Assembly: GCA_027488815.1 (NCBI GenBank)
Contig: JAIYAX010000012.1
Location: 186,001 to 250,000, forward strand
DNA from: Cytophagaceae bacterium
Lineage (GTDB): Bacteria > Bacteroidota > Bacteroidia > Cytophagales > JAIYAX01
Reading direction: 5' to 3'
Length of the DNA: 64,000 bases
The notes under the pieces were generated by a model. It was not told the DNA's origin. It saw only the letters and a list, made by a program, of their open reading frames with translations, and made no database searches. Every line of letters starts with the position of its first letter. Position 1 is the first letter of the stretch. The position numbers were made by a program, and so were the translations under genes. Of the stretch, positions 22,822 through 36,197 are shown piece by piece.

Positions 22822-23700
22822 TTATTCTTCGTAGTAATAGGAATAGTCAATGCCTTTCATAAACATTTCTCGGTCATTGATTTTAATAGTTAGTGCGGTT
22901 TCTAACAGTTGTTTTAAAACACTACTATCCACTGTACTAATAATCATAGCGTTCATATAATTCTCTTTCTTTATCTTACTCCAATCCACACATTTTTTCA
23001 AATATTTTTTAAGCATTATATCCAGCCATACTCTTGTGCTTCTGCCATTGCCTTCCTTGAAGGGGTGCGCCTTGTTCATTTCGGCATACTTCAAGATGAT
23101 TTCTTCAAGTGTGGTTTGTGGCATAGCATCTATTTGTTGCAAGGTGCTTTTCAAGTGCTGTGCATAAACAAACCTGTAGCCACCTTTTGAAATGTTTATA
23201 TCCCTGATTTGCCCCGCAAAATCATATAAGCCGCCAAACAGATAAGCGTGTATTTGTAGCAAACCTTTGGTGGTGCCCACTTCAAATTCATTTATTAAGT
23301 TACTTTCAAATAAGGTGTAGGCTTTCTTCTTGCTTTGCCCGTCAATGCTGGTATCGCTGTATAGAAACCAATCTAAGAATTTGGTTGCCTTGTTGTTGGG
23401 GAAATTTTTGGATAATTCAATAATTCCCTCACTGTCCAGCATATCGGTTTTGTACTTTTTGCCGTCTGCCGCAGTTAACTTCAGTTGGGTAGTGTCACTA
23501 ACCAACTGACTGTTTTTTTTCTTCAGCTTGGCTTTCAGGTATTTCCAATAGTTCCGGGTTTTAGTGTAGTCGGGTTCTTCGTTCAACACACCGACAATAT
23601 CCAACACACTAAACCACCATTTGGAATGGTTATCGTCCCAAACGGCTCGTACTTCACGGTCATCAAAAAAGCGAATGGATATTTTTTGTTGTTCTTTCAT
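22822..23700 (-). CDS. Fic-family AMPylase-like protein with N-terminal Bro-N-type domain
   Basis: 292 residues. Residues about 1-110 resemble the phage antirepressor/Bro-N DNA-binding domain (WWFSVLDIVGVLNEEPDYTKTRNYWKYLKAKL, then MLDSEGIIELSKNFPNNKATKFLDWF). Residues about 125-285 are a Fic domain with HPFKEGNGRSTR, the full HxFx(D/E)GNGRxxR active site that transfers nucleotide phosphates to protein hydroxyls. No S/TxxxE(G/N) inhibitory motif is obvious, so control may be in trans or through the N-terminal domain. The frame opens upstream to 23811; ATG 23700 fits the domain start. It sits alone between two long direct repeats, suggesting it arrived as a cassette. Confidence 0.85.
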   Translation of the reverse strand: MKEQQKISIRFFDDREVRAVWDDNHSKWWFSVLDIVGVLNEEPDYTKTRNYWKYLKAKLKKKNSQLVSDTTQLKLTAADGKKYKTDMLDSEGIIELSKNFPNNKATKFLDWFLYSDTSIDGQSKKKAYTLFESNLINEFEVGTTKGLLQIHAYLFGGLYDFAGQIRDINISKGGYRFVYAQHLKSTLQQIDAMPQTTLEEIILKYAEMNKAHPFKEGNGRSTRVWLDIMLKKYLKKCVDWSKIKKENYMNAMIISTVDSSVLKQLLETALTIKINDREMFMKGIDYSYYYEE

Positions 23701-23803
23701 TCTTTGTTTTCTCTTTGCTTTATTGACCCGTAGCAGCAAGTCAATACCACCGAAGCAGGAGTAGACACCTGCAAGTGAGGAATTTGTTCTGAACCCCGCT
23801 ACC

Positions 23804-23893
23804 TCACTCAATCCTTACACCAATGATACAGACATCGTCCAGCTGACGATGGTCGCTTTTCCGGGTGTTAAACAGCCTATCCACTTTGCCGGC
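23804..23893 (-). pseudogene. Remnant of SpoIIE/PP2C-type phosphatase C-terminus (copy B)
   Basis: Same 29-codon fragment as in copy A (ends LDDVCIIGVRIE then stop), with changes such as KGDH to KSDH. Two diverged copies of a gene 3' end plus its downstream spacer point to duplication of a segment that originally lay beside an intact phosphatase gene elsewhere. Confidence 0.45.
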
Positions 23894-24261: not shown

Positions 24262-26904
<2,643 letters not shown>

Positions 26905-27948
26905 TCAATCGTGAAACTCATAGCTTTTGAGGACACGCAAGCCAAAAAGCCCATCTGAAAAGGTGTAGGTGATTTTTTTGTAATGAAATATATTTTCAAA
27001 TGGGAAGAACACTCTCAACCAAATATATTCATCATACTTTTGATCTGGAAGAGTGATTTTTGAAATATATACAAATCTATAAGTTCGCTTAACACTATAA
27101 CGATAATGGTCATGATAAATCACTTTATCGAATTTAATTTCATATGTTTCAATTTCTTTTTCGTTAGAAAAAACAAAGTTGGTTAAAAAGAACGAATTTA
27201 AAACGGTAAAAGCAATTAGTGGCCAGGAAATTAATGTCATCCTTTTATTTTTACCGTATTTAAAATGTAAATATATGGATATAGATGTGCCAAGAATAAA
27301 TATTAATAATATAGTATTTAATGTTAATTGAGTATTGATAGTAACATTCATAATAATGATTATATTCAATGATAATACCAATAATGATATAAATTTATGT
27401 GATTTAATAATCACGAAAAGACCTTGAATAAACAAACTCAGACTAACTTTTACTTTAAATTTAAAAATGCCTGACCATATATGAGTAGTAATGAATGTAA
27501 TGATAAAACCTACGACTAAGCCAGTAACTGATTTGAATATAAAACCTATTAATGGGGCAGATAACAACAGTACAGACACAATCAAATACATGTATGTAAA
27601 TACTGCATATGCTGCATCGGTTTCCTTATATTGTTTCGTTTGTTTGTATTGCTTGTACTTCATCCGGGCATATTTCTCTGCCCTTCTTCGTGCTTTTTCC
27701 TCTTCGTATCTTTGCCTTTGTTCCTCAGTGACTTCAGCATACTCAACAACTTTTTTTCCTGATTTCTGCTTGATTAGATAATCAAACGCTTCGCTTAGTT
27801 GAATAAACTTTTCGTGAGCATTTGCCTCTTTATTGAGATCAGGATGCGTTTTTTTTACCTTAGCACGAAAGGCCTTTTTGATCTCTGCAATGGAAGCCCC
27901 TTCTGGTACTCCCAACATCGCATAGGCTTTTTGTTCTCGATCTGTCAT
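26905..27948 (-). CDS. Membrane-bound J-domain protein
   Basis: 347 residues. J-domain at about 3-62 with the invariant HPD (35-37), the element that stimulates Hsp70 ATPase. A Lys/Arg/Glu-rich helix (about 75-110) links it to about five membrane helices (about 113-260). The C-terminal ~85 residues are hydrophilic and beta-rich ([21 protein letters not shown]). No Gly/Phe or zinc-finger region, so it is not DnaJ itself. The DNA is much more AT-rich than its neighbours. The frame is open to 28095, but the ATG at 27948 avoids overlap and starts the J-domain. It follows the sigma factor gene by 10 bp. Confidence 0.8.
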
Positions 27949-27958
27949 CTCGTTATTG

Positions 27959-28801
27959 TCAGGAATTGGAATGTTGGCCCATAGCTCTGCTGTTGCATGC
28001 AAGAAGAGCTTCCTGGAGTACATGACCAGTTGATTGAAGTGGGTCGATACTGCTGACCAATAGCGCCCGCATCTCATAAAGTTGCTCTCTGTCATATTTG
28101 GTGGAGCCTTTTACCAGGTCTACTTTCATCAATGCTTCTTGCTGGTTTTGTCTTGGGTTGAACCAACCGTTCAGTTCAGAGCATTGATGACAAACCCCTT
28201 GTTTGCTTACTAGCGCACATCGTTCTTCAAATACATCGGTCATCACCTTGCGCCCGTCCTGCAGTAAATATTTTGCCACCCCTGAAGTTTTATCGAGTAT
28301 CTGTGCTATTTCATCCACGGCAAATCCATAGACATCTTTAAGTAACACAGCCACTTGATTTTCAATAGGCAGATTTTTGGCGACACAGGTGAAGCAGGTG
28401 TCTACATGTTCCCGTATGTCATAAGCTCCACTTGGAGAGCCGCTGTTAATCTCAGAGAGCATACTTTGTAATTCCTCACTCTCTAAGACAAGCTTTTTGG
28501 CTTTTTCACTTACATCAGGTGTCCAGCGTTTCCGCTTTCGTAGCTCATTGTAGGCCAGATTCGTGGCAATCTGAAAAACCCATGTTTTGAGTGTAGCCTC
28601 AGCCTTAAAAGTGCTTAGTTTATCAAATGCCTTTATGAAAGTGTCGTGTGTTAGGTCTTCTGCATCGTTTCGGTTAGCCGTAAGCCTATACAAATACGAC
28701 TTCAATTGACTTTGAAATCCTTTGAACAAATCCTGAAAAGCATTGATATCGCCTTCCAGAGCTTTTCTCATGGTTCCGTTATGCTCCATCATGCTATTCA
28801 T
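27959..28801 (-). CDS. ECF-type sigma-70 factor with Cys-containing C-terminal extension
   Basis: 280 residues. Region 2 (about 20-92) includes [17 protein letters not shown] and [24 protein letters not shown]; region 4 (about 150-205) includes [30 protein letters not shown] (between the two) and [20 protein letters not shown] after region 4 add cysteines that could bind metal or sense redox state. The frame opens at 28849; the ATG at 28801 overlaps the upstream stop by 8 bp, typical of coupling, and is preferred. No anti-sigma gene with a ZAS or membrane domain adjoins it. It is flanked by the STAS-like and J-domain genes. Confidence 0.85.
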
Positions 28802-29189
28802 TAAGCCAGATAATTGATTGTCTCTCCTCAATGAAGTGCCGGGTTTCAAAACTGCCTAATTTTGCAGGGATATCATTCATCATATGAAAATACTCTGGCA
28901 TGATCATGTAAGCAAACTTAGTCACACCAAGTGCTTGGTAACGTGGGTTGAGCTCTTTTTCTCGCCATTCCTGAAACTCTTCAGGTAAAATGAAGCTAAA
29001 GTTTGTAGTGTCAACCAAAAGATGCTTTACCTGATGCTGCCATGCAAACCCAGCAAAATTATGGCAAAATGCCTGAAAATCACGATAGTTAAGCTGACTA
29101 AGGTCTTCAGACCATTCGAACTTTAGTATAGGTCGGGGGTCTTCAATTAAATGAAAGGTATACAATGGGTGACTATGAAGAATTTTCAT
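28794..29189 (-). CDS. Conserved hypothetical protein, STAS/SpoIIAA-like fold possible
   Basis: 131 residues without signal peptide or membrane segment. Alternating pattern LKFEWSEDLSQLNYRDFQAFCHNFAGFAWQHQVKHLLVDTTNFSFILPEEFQEW suggests an alpha/beta fold of SpoIIAA/STAS type, with a central strand ending in LLVDT. I do not recognise a named family with certainty. Its stop overlaps the sigma factor start by 8 bp, so the two are made together and it may regulate the sigma factor, as anti-anti-sigma proteins do; that is inference. Confidence 0.55.
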   Translation of the reverse strand: MKILHSHPLYTFHLIEDPRPILKFEWSEDLSQLNYRDFQAFCHNFAGFAWQHQVKHLLVDTTNFSFILPEEFQEWREKELNPRYQALGVTKFAYMIMPEYFHMMNDIPAKLGSFETRHFIEERQSIIWLNE

Positions 29190-29260: not shown

Positions 29261-29947
29261 TTATTGCTTGATGACGGCAGGAGTAAGTTTTTTAGGCCTT
29301 TTGTTAGGACTGCACATATTGTTGTCTGCCGGGCGCTCCCCAAAATAAAGCTTACCGTTTTTGTCTAAAGAGAGCAGGTCATAGTCTCCTGGACATTCTT
29401 TCACAGACAACCATGCAGCGCAACCATTTGCCGAAATGTCGCTTTCTTGATCGGTCTTAAGCCCACAAGAGGCAAAGCCAAAGGCATTGATCAAATTTTC
29501 ATCACTTGTTTTAAGTGTCACATACTTTTTATCCTCATAAAAGACAGCTTCATAGGTATCACTTATACTTTTTGAAGGCTGCTGAAGCTTGTAGGTGCCA
29601 TAAGTTCGAAACTGAAATACCTGCATACGCAACTCAGGGTCGAGGCCAAGGGTGAAGTTGAGTGTCCACCGGCCTTTGTCAAAGGTAAAAACCCGCTTGC
29701 CCCAGGCTTTGCCATAAGGGTAGGGTGCCGGGTCAGCATAAGTGCCACTCAGGTTTTCCAGCTTGTGTTTAAGATCAGCAGGAGCAGGGTAAAATGCTGC
29801 CAGGCATAGCATTAGGCACGCTATCGAACCCAGGATGAAAAGCCTTTTCATAGAGAAAAAAGATGTTGGGTTAAAAGAACCATTTACCGAAAGAGATTTA
29901 CCCGCTGCAACTTTGTGCAGGAGTTCAGTTGGAGTTTGATTGTTCAT
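29261..29947 (-). CDS. Secreted hypothetical protein, APCDD1-like beta domain possible
   Basis: 228 residues if started at 29947. A second ATG at 29851 begins a better signal peptide (MKRLFILGSIACLMLCLAAFYPA), giving 196 residues; both starts are plausible. The secreted part has LSGTYADPAPYPYGKAWGKRVFTFDKGRWTLNFTLGLDPELRM and FRTYGTYKLQ, resembling the beta-barrel half of APCDD1-type domains, though I am not sure. Cysteines at GFASCGL, ANGCAAW, KECPG and NMCSP suggest disulfides outside the cytoplasm. No function can be assigned. Confidence 0.6.
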   Translation of the reverse strand: MNNQTPTELLHKVAAGKSLSVNGSFNPTSFFSMKRLFILGSIACLMLCLAAFYPAPADLKHKLENLSGTYADPAPYPYGKAWGKRVFTFDKGRWTLNFTLGLDPELRMQVFQFRTYGTYKLQQPSKSISDTYEAVFYEDKKYVTLKTSDENLINAFGFASCGLKTDQESDISANGCAAWLSVKECPGDYDLLSLDKNGKLYFGERPADNNMCSPNKRPKKLTPAVIKQ

Positions 29948-30177
29948 TGCTGTGTGTTTAAATGTTTTATATACTTATGACACTCTGCTCTCTGAAAACG
30001 GATGAAAATGGATCAGATAAATTTCCAGAATAAGTTCAATAGGAGTTTACCCATTGATCAACAAGTAATTATGATCAAGCTGGACATCTACCATGACAAT
30101 ACTTCTTCCTAATCGATATCCTTTGGCATATCAATTGAAACGATGTGTGTTCTTAACACTTAAGATTCTATGCTAAA

Positions 30178-35414: not shown

Positions 35415-36197
35415 ATGGGTATGCAGCTAACACTGTTAAGGCAGGACTTATTTGATGAGTATAAGAAGCAACTGAATATCAATATAGATAGTGAATTTGC
35501 TGCCATGATTAGGAAATCGAAAACCGCAGAAGATTTCAAATTTTATCTTGCAAATTCAGCGGTTCATTCATCCAACATAGAGGGTAACACAGTAAGTTTT
35601 GATACCTATTTAAAAGCCAGTGAGTTCAATTTGCATCTAAAGACAAAGGAGATAAAAGAAATAGAGGACCTCATTGCTGCATACCAATACGCAAGAGAGA
35701 ATGAATTGACACTTGATCATATTTTAAAAGCACATGAAATTTTGACGACATCCATCCTTGTAAAGAAAGAACGAGGAAAAATAAGGAAAGTACAAGTTGG
35801 TGTAAGAAGTGATGGACGCTTGGTTTACTTAGCTGTTGAACCTGAGTATGTAAAACAAGAATTAGTAAAGTTGTTTGCTGATATTTCAATGTTACTCAAA
35901 ACCAAATTGACAACAGCTGAAGTATTTTATTATGCAGCACTCATTCATCTTGTATTCGTAAATATTCATCCATTTGTTGACGGAAATGGCAGAGCGACCC
36001 GACTAATTGAGAAATGGTTTTTAGCAATAAAACTGGGCGAGGCGTCTTGGTTCATAACATCAGAAAAAAATTATTGGGACAACAGACCCAAATACTACAA
36101 GAACTTGCAACTTGGAGCAAACTATTATGAAATAAAATATGAGTTGAGCCTTCCATTTTTATTAATGCTGCCAAATTCATTGGTGGCAAAGGTATGA
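35415..36197 (+). CDS. Fic-family protein, class II (N-terminal inhibitory motif)
   Basis: 260 residues. The active-site loop HPFVDGNGRATR (around residue 178) is the complete Fic motif for nucleotide transfer to target proteins. SSNIEGN near residue 55 is the S-x-x-x-E-G autoinhibitory motif on an N-terminal helix, so activity is probably self-limited. The DNA is AT-rich compared with the surrounding core genes. The stop overlaps the start of a 45-codon frame by 4 bp (ATGA). It lies at the head of a group of toxin-type genes, several of which are broken. Confidence 0.88.
   Translation: MGMQLTLLRQDLFDEYKKQLNINIDSEFAAMIRKSKTAEDFKFYLANSAVHSSNIEGNTVSFDTYLKASEFNLHLKTKEIKEIEDLIAAYQYARENELTLDHILKAHEILTTSILVKKERGKIRKVQVGVRSDGRLVYLAVEPEYVKQELVKLFADISMLLKTKLTTAEVFYYAALIHLVFVNIHPFVDGNGRATRLIEKWFLAIKLGEASWFITSEKNYWDNRPKYYKNLQLGANYYEIKYELSLPFLLMLPNSLVAKV

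Follow-up and report, generated by a model that had tools for sequence, protein, structure and literature searches.

An extracytoplasmic function sigma factor family of Bacteroidota with six invariant cysteine and histidine residues and a predicted promoter ahead of its own operon

Results

Gene layout of the locus

The 64,000-nt stretch analysed here (the window; contig JAIYAX010000012.1, positions 186,001 to 250,000) belongs to the genome of a Cytophagaceae bacterium (G000; 3.37 Mb in 30 contigs) whose homologue matches lie in Bacteroidota in nearly all cases. On its minus strand the window carries adjacent genes for a STAS-like protein and an extracytoplasmic function (ECF) sigma factor, both of which had been recognised in a first-pass annotation and are present. 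In order of transcription, a predicted promoter is followed by genes for a secreted-type protein (SEC200), the STAS-like protein, the sigma factor and a DnaJ-domain protein (Table 1). The sigma-70 region 2 and region 4 profiles (PF04542 and PF08281) match the window sigma factor at 58.7 and 27.2 bits, above the Pfam cut-offs, as does TIGR02937 above its own, and both Pfam profiles match each of the 90 family members that were aligned (E up to 0.1).

An 8-bp overlap between the STAS-like and sigma genes, as first annotated, is obtained if translation of the sigma factor begins at ATG 28801. The start at ATG 28789, which gives a protein of 276 aa, fits the starts of homologues (L009 and L011) better and is likely the one used, in which case the genes are separated by a gap of 4 bp; residues are numbered from this codon. 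The earlier remark that no anti-sigma gene adjoins the sigma gene was borne out, as none of the seven neighbourhood proteins scanned matched an anti-sigma family.

Table 1. Coordinates of predicted features in the sigma factor operon of the window.
Feature	Coordinates	Strand	Basis
Predicted ECF-type promoter, TCATCCGTTT-N13-TGTC	29979..30005	-	Exact match to the motif common to homologous operons
SEC200, secreted-type protein of ~196 aa, first gene of the operon	29261..29851	-	Homologues upstream in 18/90 loci
STAS/SpoIIAA-like protein, 131 aa	28794..29189	-	Model with pLDDT 95.7, matches to STAS folds, alignment
ECF sigma factor	27959..28801	-	PF04542 and PF08281 above cut-off; alignment of starts
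Motif H128-x3-C132-x2-C135, start of sigma-4	28385..28408	-	Invariant in 90/90
Motif C191-x8-C200-x2-C203, directly behind sigma-4	28181..28219	-	Invariant in 90/90; 12/12 rows not chosen by motif
C-terminal helical pair, residues 234-276	27962..28090	-	Model, block pLDDT 62-91
DnaJ-domain membrane-type protein	26905..27948	-	PF00226; 10 bp past the sigma gene

Six invariant cysteine and histidine residues

Across the 90 aligned sequences (pairwise identity 37-100%, median 58%, window included), five cysteines and one histidine (H128, C132, C135, C191, C200 and C203) are invariant; the alignment has just 24 invariant columns in 276, these six included. They form two motifs. The first, H-x3-C-x2-C, reads HVDTCFTC in the window protein and lies at the start of the first helix of sigma-4 (residues 125-137 in the structural model) rather than in a free linker, where the first-pass annotation had placed its TCFTC string. 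The second, C-x8-C-x2-C, is the cysteine-bearing extension that the same annotation had noted after region 4. Its conjecture of a metal- or redox-sensing sigma factor presupposed that these cysteines are conserved, and they are, with all six residues kept in 90/90 sequences.

The composition of the alignment limits how this count is to be read. The C-terminal motif was the search pattern of the scan that contributed 78 rows, drawn from the best 80 of 295 relatives, so that the sample is biased toward window-like members and only the invariance of H-x3-C-x2-C is unselected in these rows; L036 and L078, which have broken frames, were excluded. The other 12 rows, the window and 11 sequences from whole-genome and plasmid similarity searches, were collected by plain similarity, and all six residues are kept in every one of them. 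Among 20 generic ECF controls added to the alignment, the full set occurs in none. Further along the C-terminal tail, D249 and P250 are near-invariant and C265 is found in 82/90 sequences. Since the cysteines and the histidine are fixed rather than freely varying, the alignment supports a metal- or thiol-based function and suggests that the cysteines may sense metal or redox state.

The same residues could instead form a purely structural zinc site for sigma-4 and the tail, with activity set by a ligand, by the tail or by transcription. C-x2-C together with C-x8-C-x2-C makes a ligand set like that of zinc knuckles; invariance suits a structural site as much as a sensor, and the free histidines are variable (H201 in 68/90). 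Two observations make this explanation doubtful: the neighbours in the sigma operons are redox enzymes, and in CorE and OrbS, according to excerpts of the reports on them, a cysteine cluster behind sigma-4 is the sensor (PMC3107203, PMC9023288).

A predicted promoter ahead of the operon

Upstream regions were compared by a gapped-word count, which used 85 of the 90 regions, and by a matrix test on 55 + 33 loci (88/90; two have short upstream sequence). Pairs of a CGTTT-type word with GTC occurred in up to 27/85 regions, whereas shuffled sequences gave no more than 11. The exact pattern CCGTTT-N13-YGTC was present at 57 sites in 52/90 loci when the 5 kb upstream were read on the sigma strand (149.7 per Mb), compared with 3 sites in 1.26 Mb (2.4 per Mb) elsewhere or on the opposite strand, a background of three times the upstream sigma-strand sequence. 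A matrix derived from loci with SDR or DoxX neighbours reached at least 12 bits in 34/55 other loci and in 0/55 on the opposite strand, and the reverse-trained matrix did so in 30/33 on the right strand versus 2/33 on the opposite one. The form of the promoter varies with the sigma branch, CGACCGTTTT/CGTC being found in SDR/DoxX loci and CATCCGTTTT/TGTC in others, with the longer branch forms CCGACCGTTTTG...GGCT...TCGTC and TTTCATCCGTTTT...GCTCG...TTGTCA; the window site reads TCATCCGTTTTCAGAGAGCAGAGTGTC.

The genome of the window has a single exact site, 31 bp ahead of the first open reading frame (ORF) of the operon, and no sites with one mismatch; with up to three mismatches there are 356 sites versus 424 for a reversed control pattern. 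By coordinates, six of the eight exact sites in ten genomes of the same broad branch stand at their own operon and two elsewhere, and in ten SDR-type genomes all seven (7/7) stand at their own operon. Some sites with one mismatch in the SDR-type genomes could be additional targets. These counts suggest that the sigma factor recognises a CCGTTT-N13-YGTC promoter and that it appears to control little beyond its own operon.

That the motif is instead an operator, or the promoter of another sigma factor, is improbable. Its -35 element, CCGTTT, does differ from the AAC signature usual in ECF promoters, as given in excerpts of PMC3426412, and G000 holds further ECF-like matches, 14 in total. Yet the two-box layout, the -10 element YGTC and the position, mostly 20-60 bp ahead of start codons, are those of a promoter, there is about one site per genome and it is tied to this sigma factor, and its form changes with the sigma branch.

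Predicted structure of the sigma factor

In a model of the sigma factor computed from 57 of the 90 rows (mean predicted local distance difference test score (pLDDT) 83.8, pTM 0.84), H128, C132 and C135 fall within the first sigma-4 helix and C191 at the end of the last. Behind residue 228 the model predicts a helical pair, with block pLDDT values of 78-91 that fall to 62 at the end. Taken whole, the model resembles sigma factors in a closed or sequestered state: free SigG1, which carries a fused domain (Z 17.8, root mean square deviation (rmsd) 3.2, 173 residues), SigW in complex with RsiW (Z 17.6, 1.8-1.9 Å over 150-151 residues) and CnrH bound to CnrY (Z 15.8). With both domains superposed, the fit to sigma factors within RNA polymerase is poor, SigH chains for instance deviating by 26.8 Å over 143 residues (5zx3_F) and 27.7 Å over 151 (6kop_F). 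The predicted model thus fits a self-closed form held by the protein's own extension.

Neighbouring genes and the STAS-like protein

The first-pass annotation had taken the upstream gene to be a conserved partner of the sigma factor, and this mostly did not hold. Genes at each locus were called as longest ORFs by a simple script, which makes intergenic gaps approximate. A STAS-like gene stands beside the sigma gene in only 15/90 loci, together with MDR and SEC200 genes in four, with SEC200 in six and alone in five, and on the sigma tree all 15 loci belong to a single branch of 41 rows. The remaining loci mostly have SDR or MDR (quinone-oxidoreductase-like) genes in this slot, and others DoxX or SnoaL genes; in the other branches SDR or DoxX prevail. 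The anatomy of the sigma factor is unchanged in these loci, so that the family as a whole is not built on control by a small soluble partner. Neighbour labels change 26 times on the sigma tree versus 53.7 times in shuffles, on a tree whose bootstrap is not fully settled. The SDR neighbour matches PF13561; among NCBIfam models the MDR representative scores best against the PIG3 quinone oxidoreductase family, below cut-off; and the SnoaL and DoxX labels are based on one representative each, the latter at E 0.22.

The STAS label itself is upheld by fold, as the model of the window protein (pLDDT 95.7) has STAS/SpoIIAA proteins as its nearest solved structures. Such proteins led the matches in both Foldseek and VIA, one ranking being headed by 4xs5, 2q3l and 1h4y and the other giving Z 10.3 for 2q3l and 9.6 for RsbS. 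By sequence the window copy matches PF11964 weakly (E 0.033; 15.3 of 25 bits, below the gathering cut-off), and 12 of the 15 sigma-linked homologues match it at E up to 0.1, the best at 3.2e-07. When solved structures were searched by sequence with the STAS alignment, the only match, MINI SPINDLES TOG3, was at chance level (E 0.17) and was discarded, and the alignment matched neither of two Chloroflexota genomes (0/2). Cys42, two tryptophans and several phenylalanines are invariant in the 15 sequences; no Ser/Thr column is, which makes a classical phosphorylation switch through the STAS-like protein unlikely. The wider STAS family has members in 20/59 related genomes, one of which holds as many as 36. 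In G046, G013, G030 and others this short STAS/SpoIIAA-like family is strongly expanded, sometimes as neighbouring copies.

A dedicated role for the STAS-like protein, as anti-sigma or anti-anti-sigma regulator, has several points in its favour. Its gene adjoins the sigma gene closely in 14/15 loci (a gap of at most 69 bp or a short overlap), the sigma-linked copies form a high-scoring subfamily of their own (180-198 bits, paralogues 75 or less), Cys42 is invariant, and STAS and sigma distances correlate at 0.727, a value reached in 0/2000 permutations. SEC200, however, tracks the sigma factor equally well (0.883, against 0.897 for the STAS-like protein, in the ten loci with all three), so that co-inheritance suffices for the correlation. 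The 75/90 loci that lack the STAS-like gene keep the same sigma motifs, and most of them the promoter, and a conserved phosphoacceptor is missing from the 15 sequences. We judge such a dedicated regulator to be quite unlikely here and, from the neighbourhoods, the sigma tree and the distance correlation together, reject a STAS partner as a general design. Most probably the STAS-like protein is cargo of the operon, or an accessory to it, rather than a universal regulator; as it travels with the sigma factor within its branch, an accessory role there is possible.

SEC200 has no match in Pfam or NCBIfam. Its cluster was recounted at 18 loci after SnoaL-type proteins were removed from an initial 22, a number inflated by a long ORF in L025 that had joined the two types. 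That L025 gene, at position -3, holds SEC200-type and SnoaL-like stretches as one frame of 459 aa, possibly a fusion or a lost stop. SEC200 homologues start at a signal-peptide-like stretch and not at the longer ORF, and the portion of the window ORF up to 29947 is probably leader. About 127 bases (29852-29978, minus strand) separate the predicted promoter from the likely SEC200 start; this stretch is in frame and open from ATG 29947, and its product would be a short leader (MNNQTPTELLHKVAAGKS...). The distance from promoter to first gene is shorter in many homologous operons than in the window. L009, L021, L024 and L025 have an MDR gene at this place; the window is without it.

Among the other loci of the neighbourhood table the DnaJ-domain gene was not a recurrent neighbour of the sigma gene, which suggests a local addition, and it may be an operon member in the window genome alone. 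Its product has several hydrophobic, membrane-like stretches. Downstream by 363 bp on the same strand lies a catalase-peroxidase gene (24262-26541; KatG-like, with two peroxidase stretches). Two further genes appear by eye to be Fic/DOC-like from a motif in each: 22822-23811 (minus strand, HPFKEGNGR), whose N-terminal part resembles phage antirepressor-type domains by eye, and 35415-36197 (plus strand, HPFVDGNGR).

Range of the family

In 395 Bacteroidota genomes searched with a profile, nine members scored 354 bits or more and generic ECF sigma factors came next at 92 bits or less, a gap that marks the family as discrete. Judged by such searches, the six-residue sigma factor is spread across Bacteroidota and found mainly in that phylum. 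Outside it, 3 of 301 Chloroflexota genomes matched: an Ardenticatenaceae genome (G464, the source of L041 and itself included in the 301), the source of L215, which has all six residues, and the source of L216, a distant and short relative. By eye, L216 keeps the five cysteines, has valine at the His128 site and lacks the long helical tail. From this anatomy the five cysteines look like the core, and the histidine and tail like additions of the main family.

Plasmid searches gave one close member and two distant generic ones, and a phage search gave a single partial match. The close member (L011, 68% identical) is carried by the Haliscomenobacter hydrossis plasmid pHALHY03, where it follows an MDR gene and the promoter motif is present. 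An IS630 transposase gene is nearby, which, on a plasmid, indicates that the unit can move. In L016, L019 and L215, the most distant members of the main family, an SRPBCC-like gene (by eye) follows the sigma gene, and in L015, L016 and L019 a conserved protein of 137 aa does so; these four layouts, with downstream genes and no preceding oxidoreductase, suggest a second operon type.

Discussion

Taken together, these findings favour, with moderate confidence, a self-contained and autoregulated ECF switch gated by metal or thiol chemistry, with the STAS-like protein carried as operon cargo. The built-in module would consist of H-x3-C-x2-C in the first helix of sigma-4 and, behind sigma-4, C-x8-C-x2-C and the helical pair. 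The most probable role of its residues is to bind zinc or some other metal, or to act as a thiol switch, and in the bound or closed state they would hold sigma-2 and sigma-4 in a shape incompetent for RNA polymerase. Loss of a thiolate, oxidation, alkylation or metal exchange could open it. The opened sigma factor would then act at its own CCGTTT-N13-YGTC promoter, and the operon would yield an oxidoreductase and/or a secreted protein, the STAS-like protein in the branch of the window, and more sigma factor. The redox enzymes encoded in these operons (MDR/PIG3-like, SDR) point to a signal in the form of a carbonyl, a quinone or an oxidant, and more broadly the signal may be an electrophile.

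Several observations weigh against this self-gated switch. The loop carrying C191 to C203 is modelled at low confidence (residues 192-228 mostly below pLDDT 50), so that support for a site shared between the two motifs is weak, and AlphaFold may favour compact forms. An exact promoter is absent from 38/90 loci, of which some have near-matches and some are cut short. Judged from the sequence of L216, His128 and the tail are dispensable in some relatives.

A more specific version, which we put forward tentatively and think rather doubtful as a whole, treats the sigma factor as the one-protein equivalent of a sigma/zinc-anti-sigma pair. A zinc-thiolate staple would join H-x3-C-x2-C to the C-terminal cysteine cluster, electrophiles or oxidants would open it to switch on the sigma factor's own promoter and with it quinone or carbonyl reductases, and in the branch of the window the STAS-like protein, through its invariant cysteine, would feed a second signal into this sigma factor.

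ECF sigma factors that lack an anti-sigma partner still pose a question, and those with cysteine-based C-terminal extensions have been studied in only a few cases. As the signature of six residues is fixed, the promoter defined and the predicted target usually a single one, the proposed switch can be tested with a reporter and a few mutants. Should the gating by thiol or metal prove real, the family would offer a compact, portable sigma switch and a hint of how ECF sigma factors might evolve from partner-controlled to self-controlled. No description of the family was found in the titles, abstracts and listings of the literature searched, to which the main ECF classification and the CorE2 paper do not belong, and the family may already carry a 2021 ECF group number (10.1093/nar/gkaa1229).

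H-x3-C-x2-C is the signature of zinc anti-sigma factors (ZAS) of the RsrA/RsiW type. The window sigma factor shares this string (HVDTCFTC), too short by itself to establish homology, and its predicted closed shape is near that of SigW bound by RsiW; here, however, the motif is inside the sigma factor. Homology to ZAS proteins was set aside, as the window protein matched neither zf-HC2 nor any other ZAS profile (E up to 0.1). The STAS-like protein shares the fold of STAS/SpoIIAA proteins (4xs5, 2q3l, RsbS; rmsd 3.6 over 115 residues for 2q3l) at ~10-14% identity, and differs from them in having invariant Cys, Trp and Phe instead of Ser/Thr.

In organisation the closest parallels are with ECF41 (Ecf41Bli, Ecf41Rsp, SigJ). 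According to excerpts of PMC3426412, ECF41 sigma factors have a regulatory C-terminal extension, and one conserved promoter ahead of their operon, TGTCACA-n16-CGTC, is the sole detectable target. As here, no anti-sigma gene is adjacent, the sigma gene often stands behind an oxidoreductase-type gene, the own operon is the main target and the -10 element is CGTC. The extension, however, is SnoaL-like there and consists of cysteines, histidine and two helices here, and the -35 element is TGTCACA there and CCGTTT here. The SnoaL extension of ECF41/ECF56 has no match in the window sigma factor, nor in the 90 members among the matches listed (25 of 47 families), and with CCGTTT-N13-YGTC in place of TGTCACA-n16-CGTC membership of these groups was rejected. 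A few loci do carry SnoaL as a gene of its own.

The nearest parallels for the proposed chemistry are CorE and CorE2 of Myxococcus xanthus (ex-ECF44, ECF238) and OrbS of Burkholderia cenocepacia (ECF243), again as described in excerpts of the reports on them. In CorE the cysteine cluster behind sigma-4 binds metal and sets activity (PMC3107203, PMC8999054, PMC9023288), and in OrbS it is an on-board Fe(II) sensor (PMC9023288). CorE has a CXC motif (PMC8999054) where the present family has H-x3-C-x2-C, and the cysteine-rich domains of CorE and CorE2 are spaced C-x4-C-x2-C-x-C or CC-x3-C-x2-C-x-C (PMC9023288), whereas C-x8-C-x2-C and a helical tail are found here and the neighbours are not copper genes. 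A CorE-like (ECF44/ECF238) assignment was rejected, as the C-x2-C-x-C core is replaced by C-x8-C-x2-C. OrbS has C-x2-C-x3-C-x5-C spacing and iron-uptake targets, and the excerpts of PMC9023288 mention no motif like H-x3-C-x2-C in it. The family described here therefore differs from both ECF41 and CorE, sharing operon organisation with the one and a cysteine cluster behind sigma-4 with the other.
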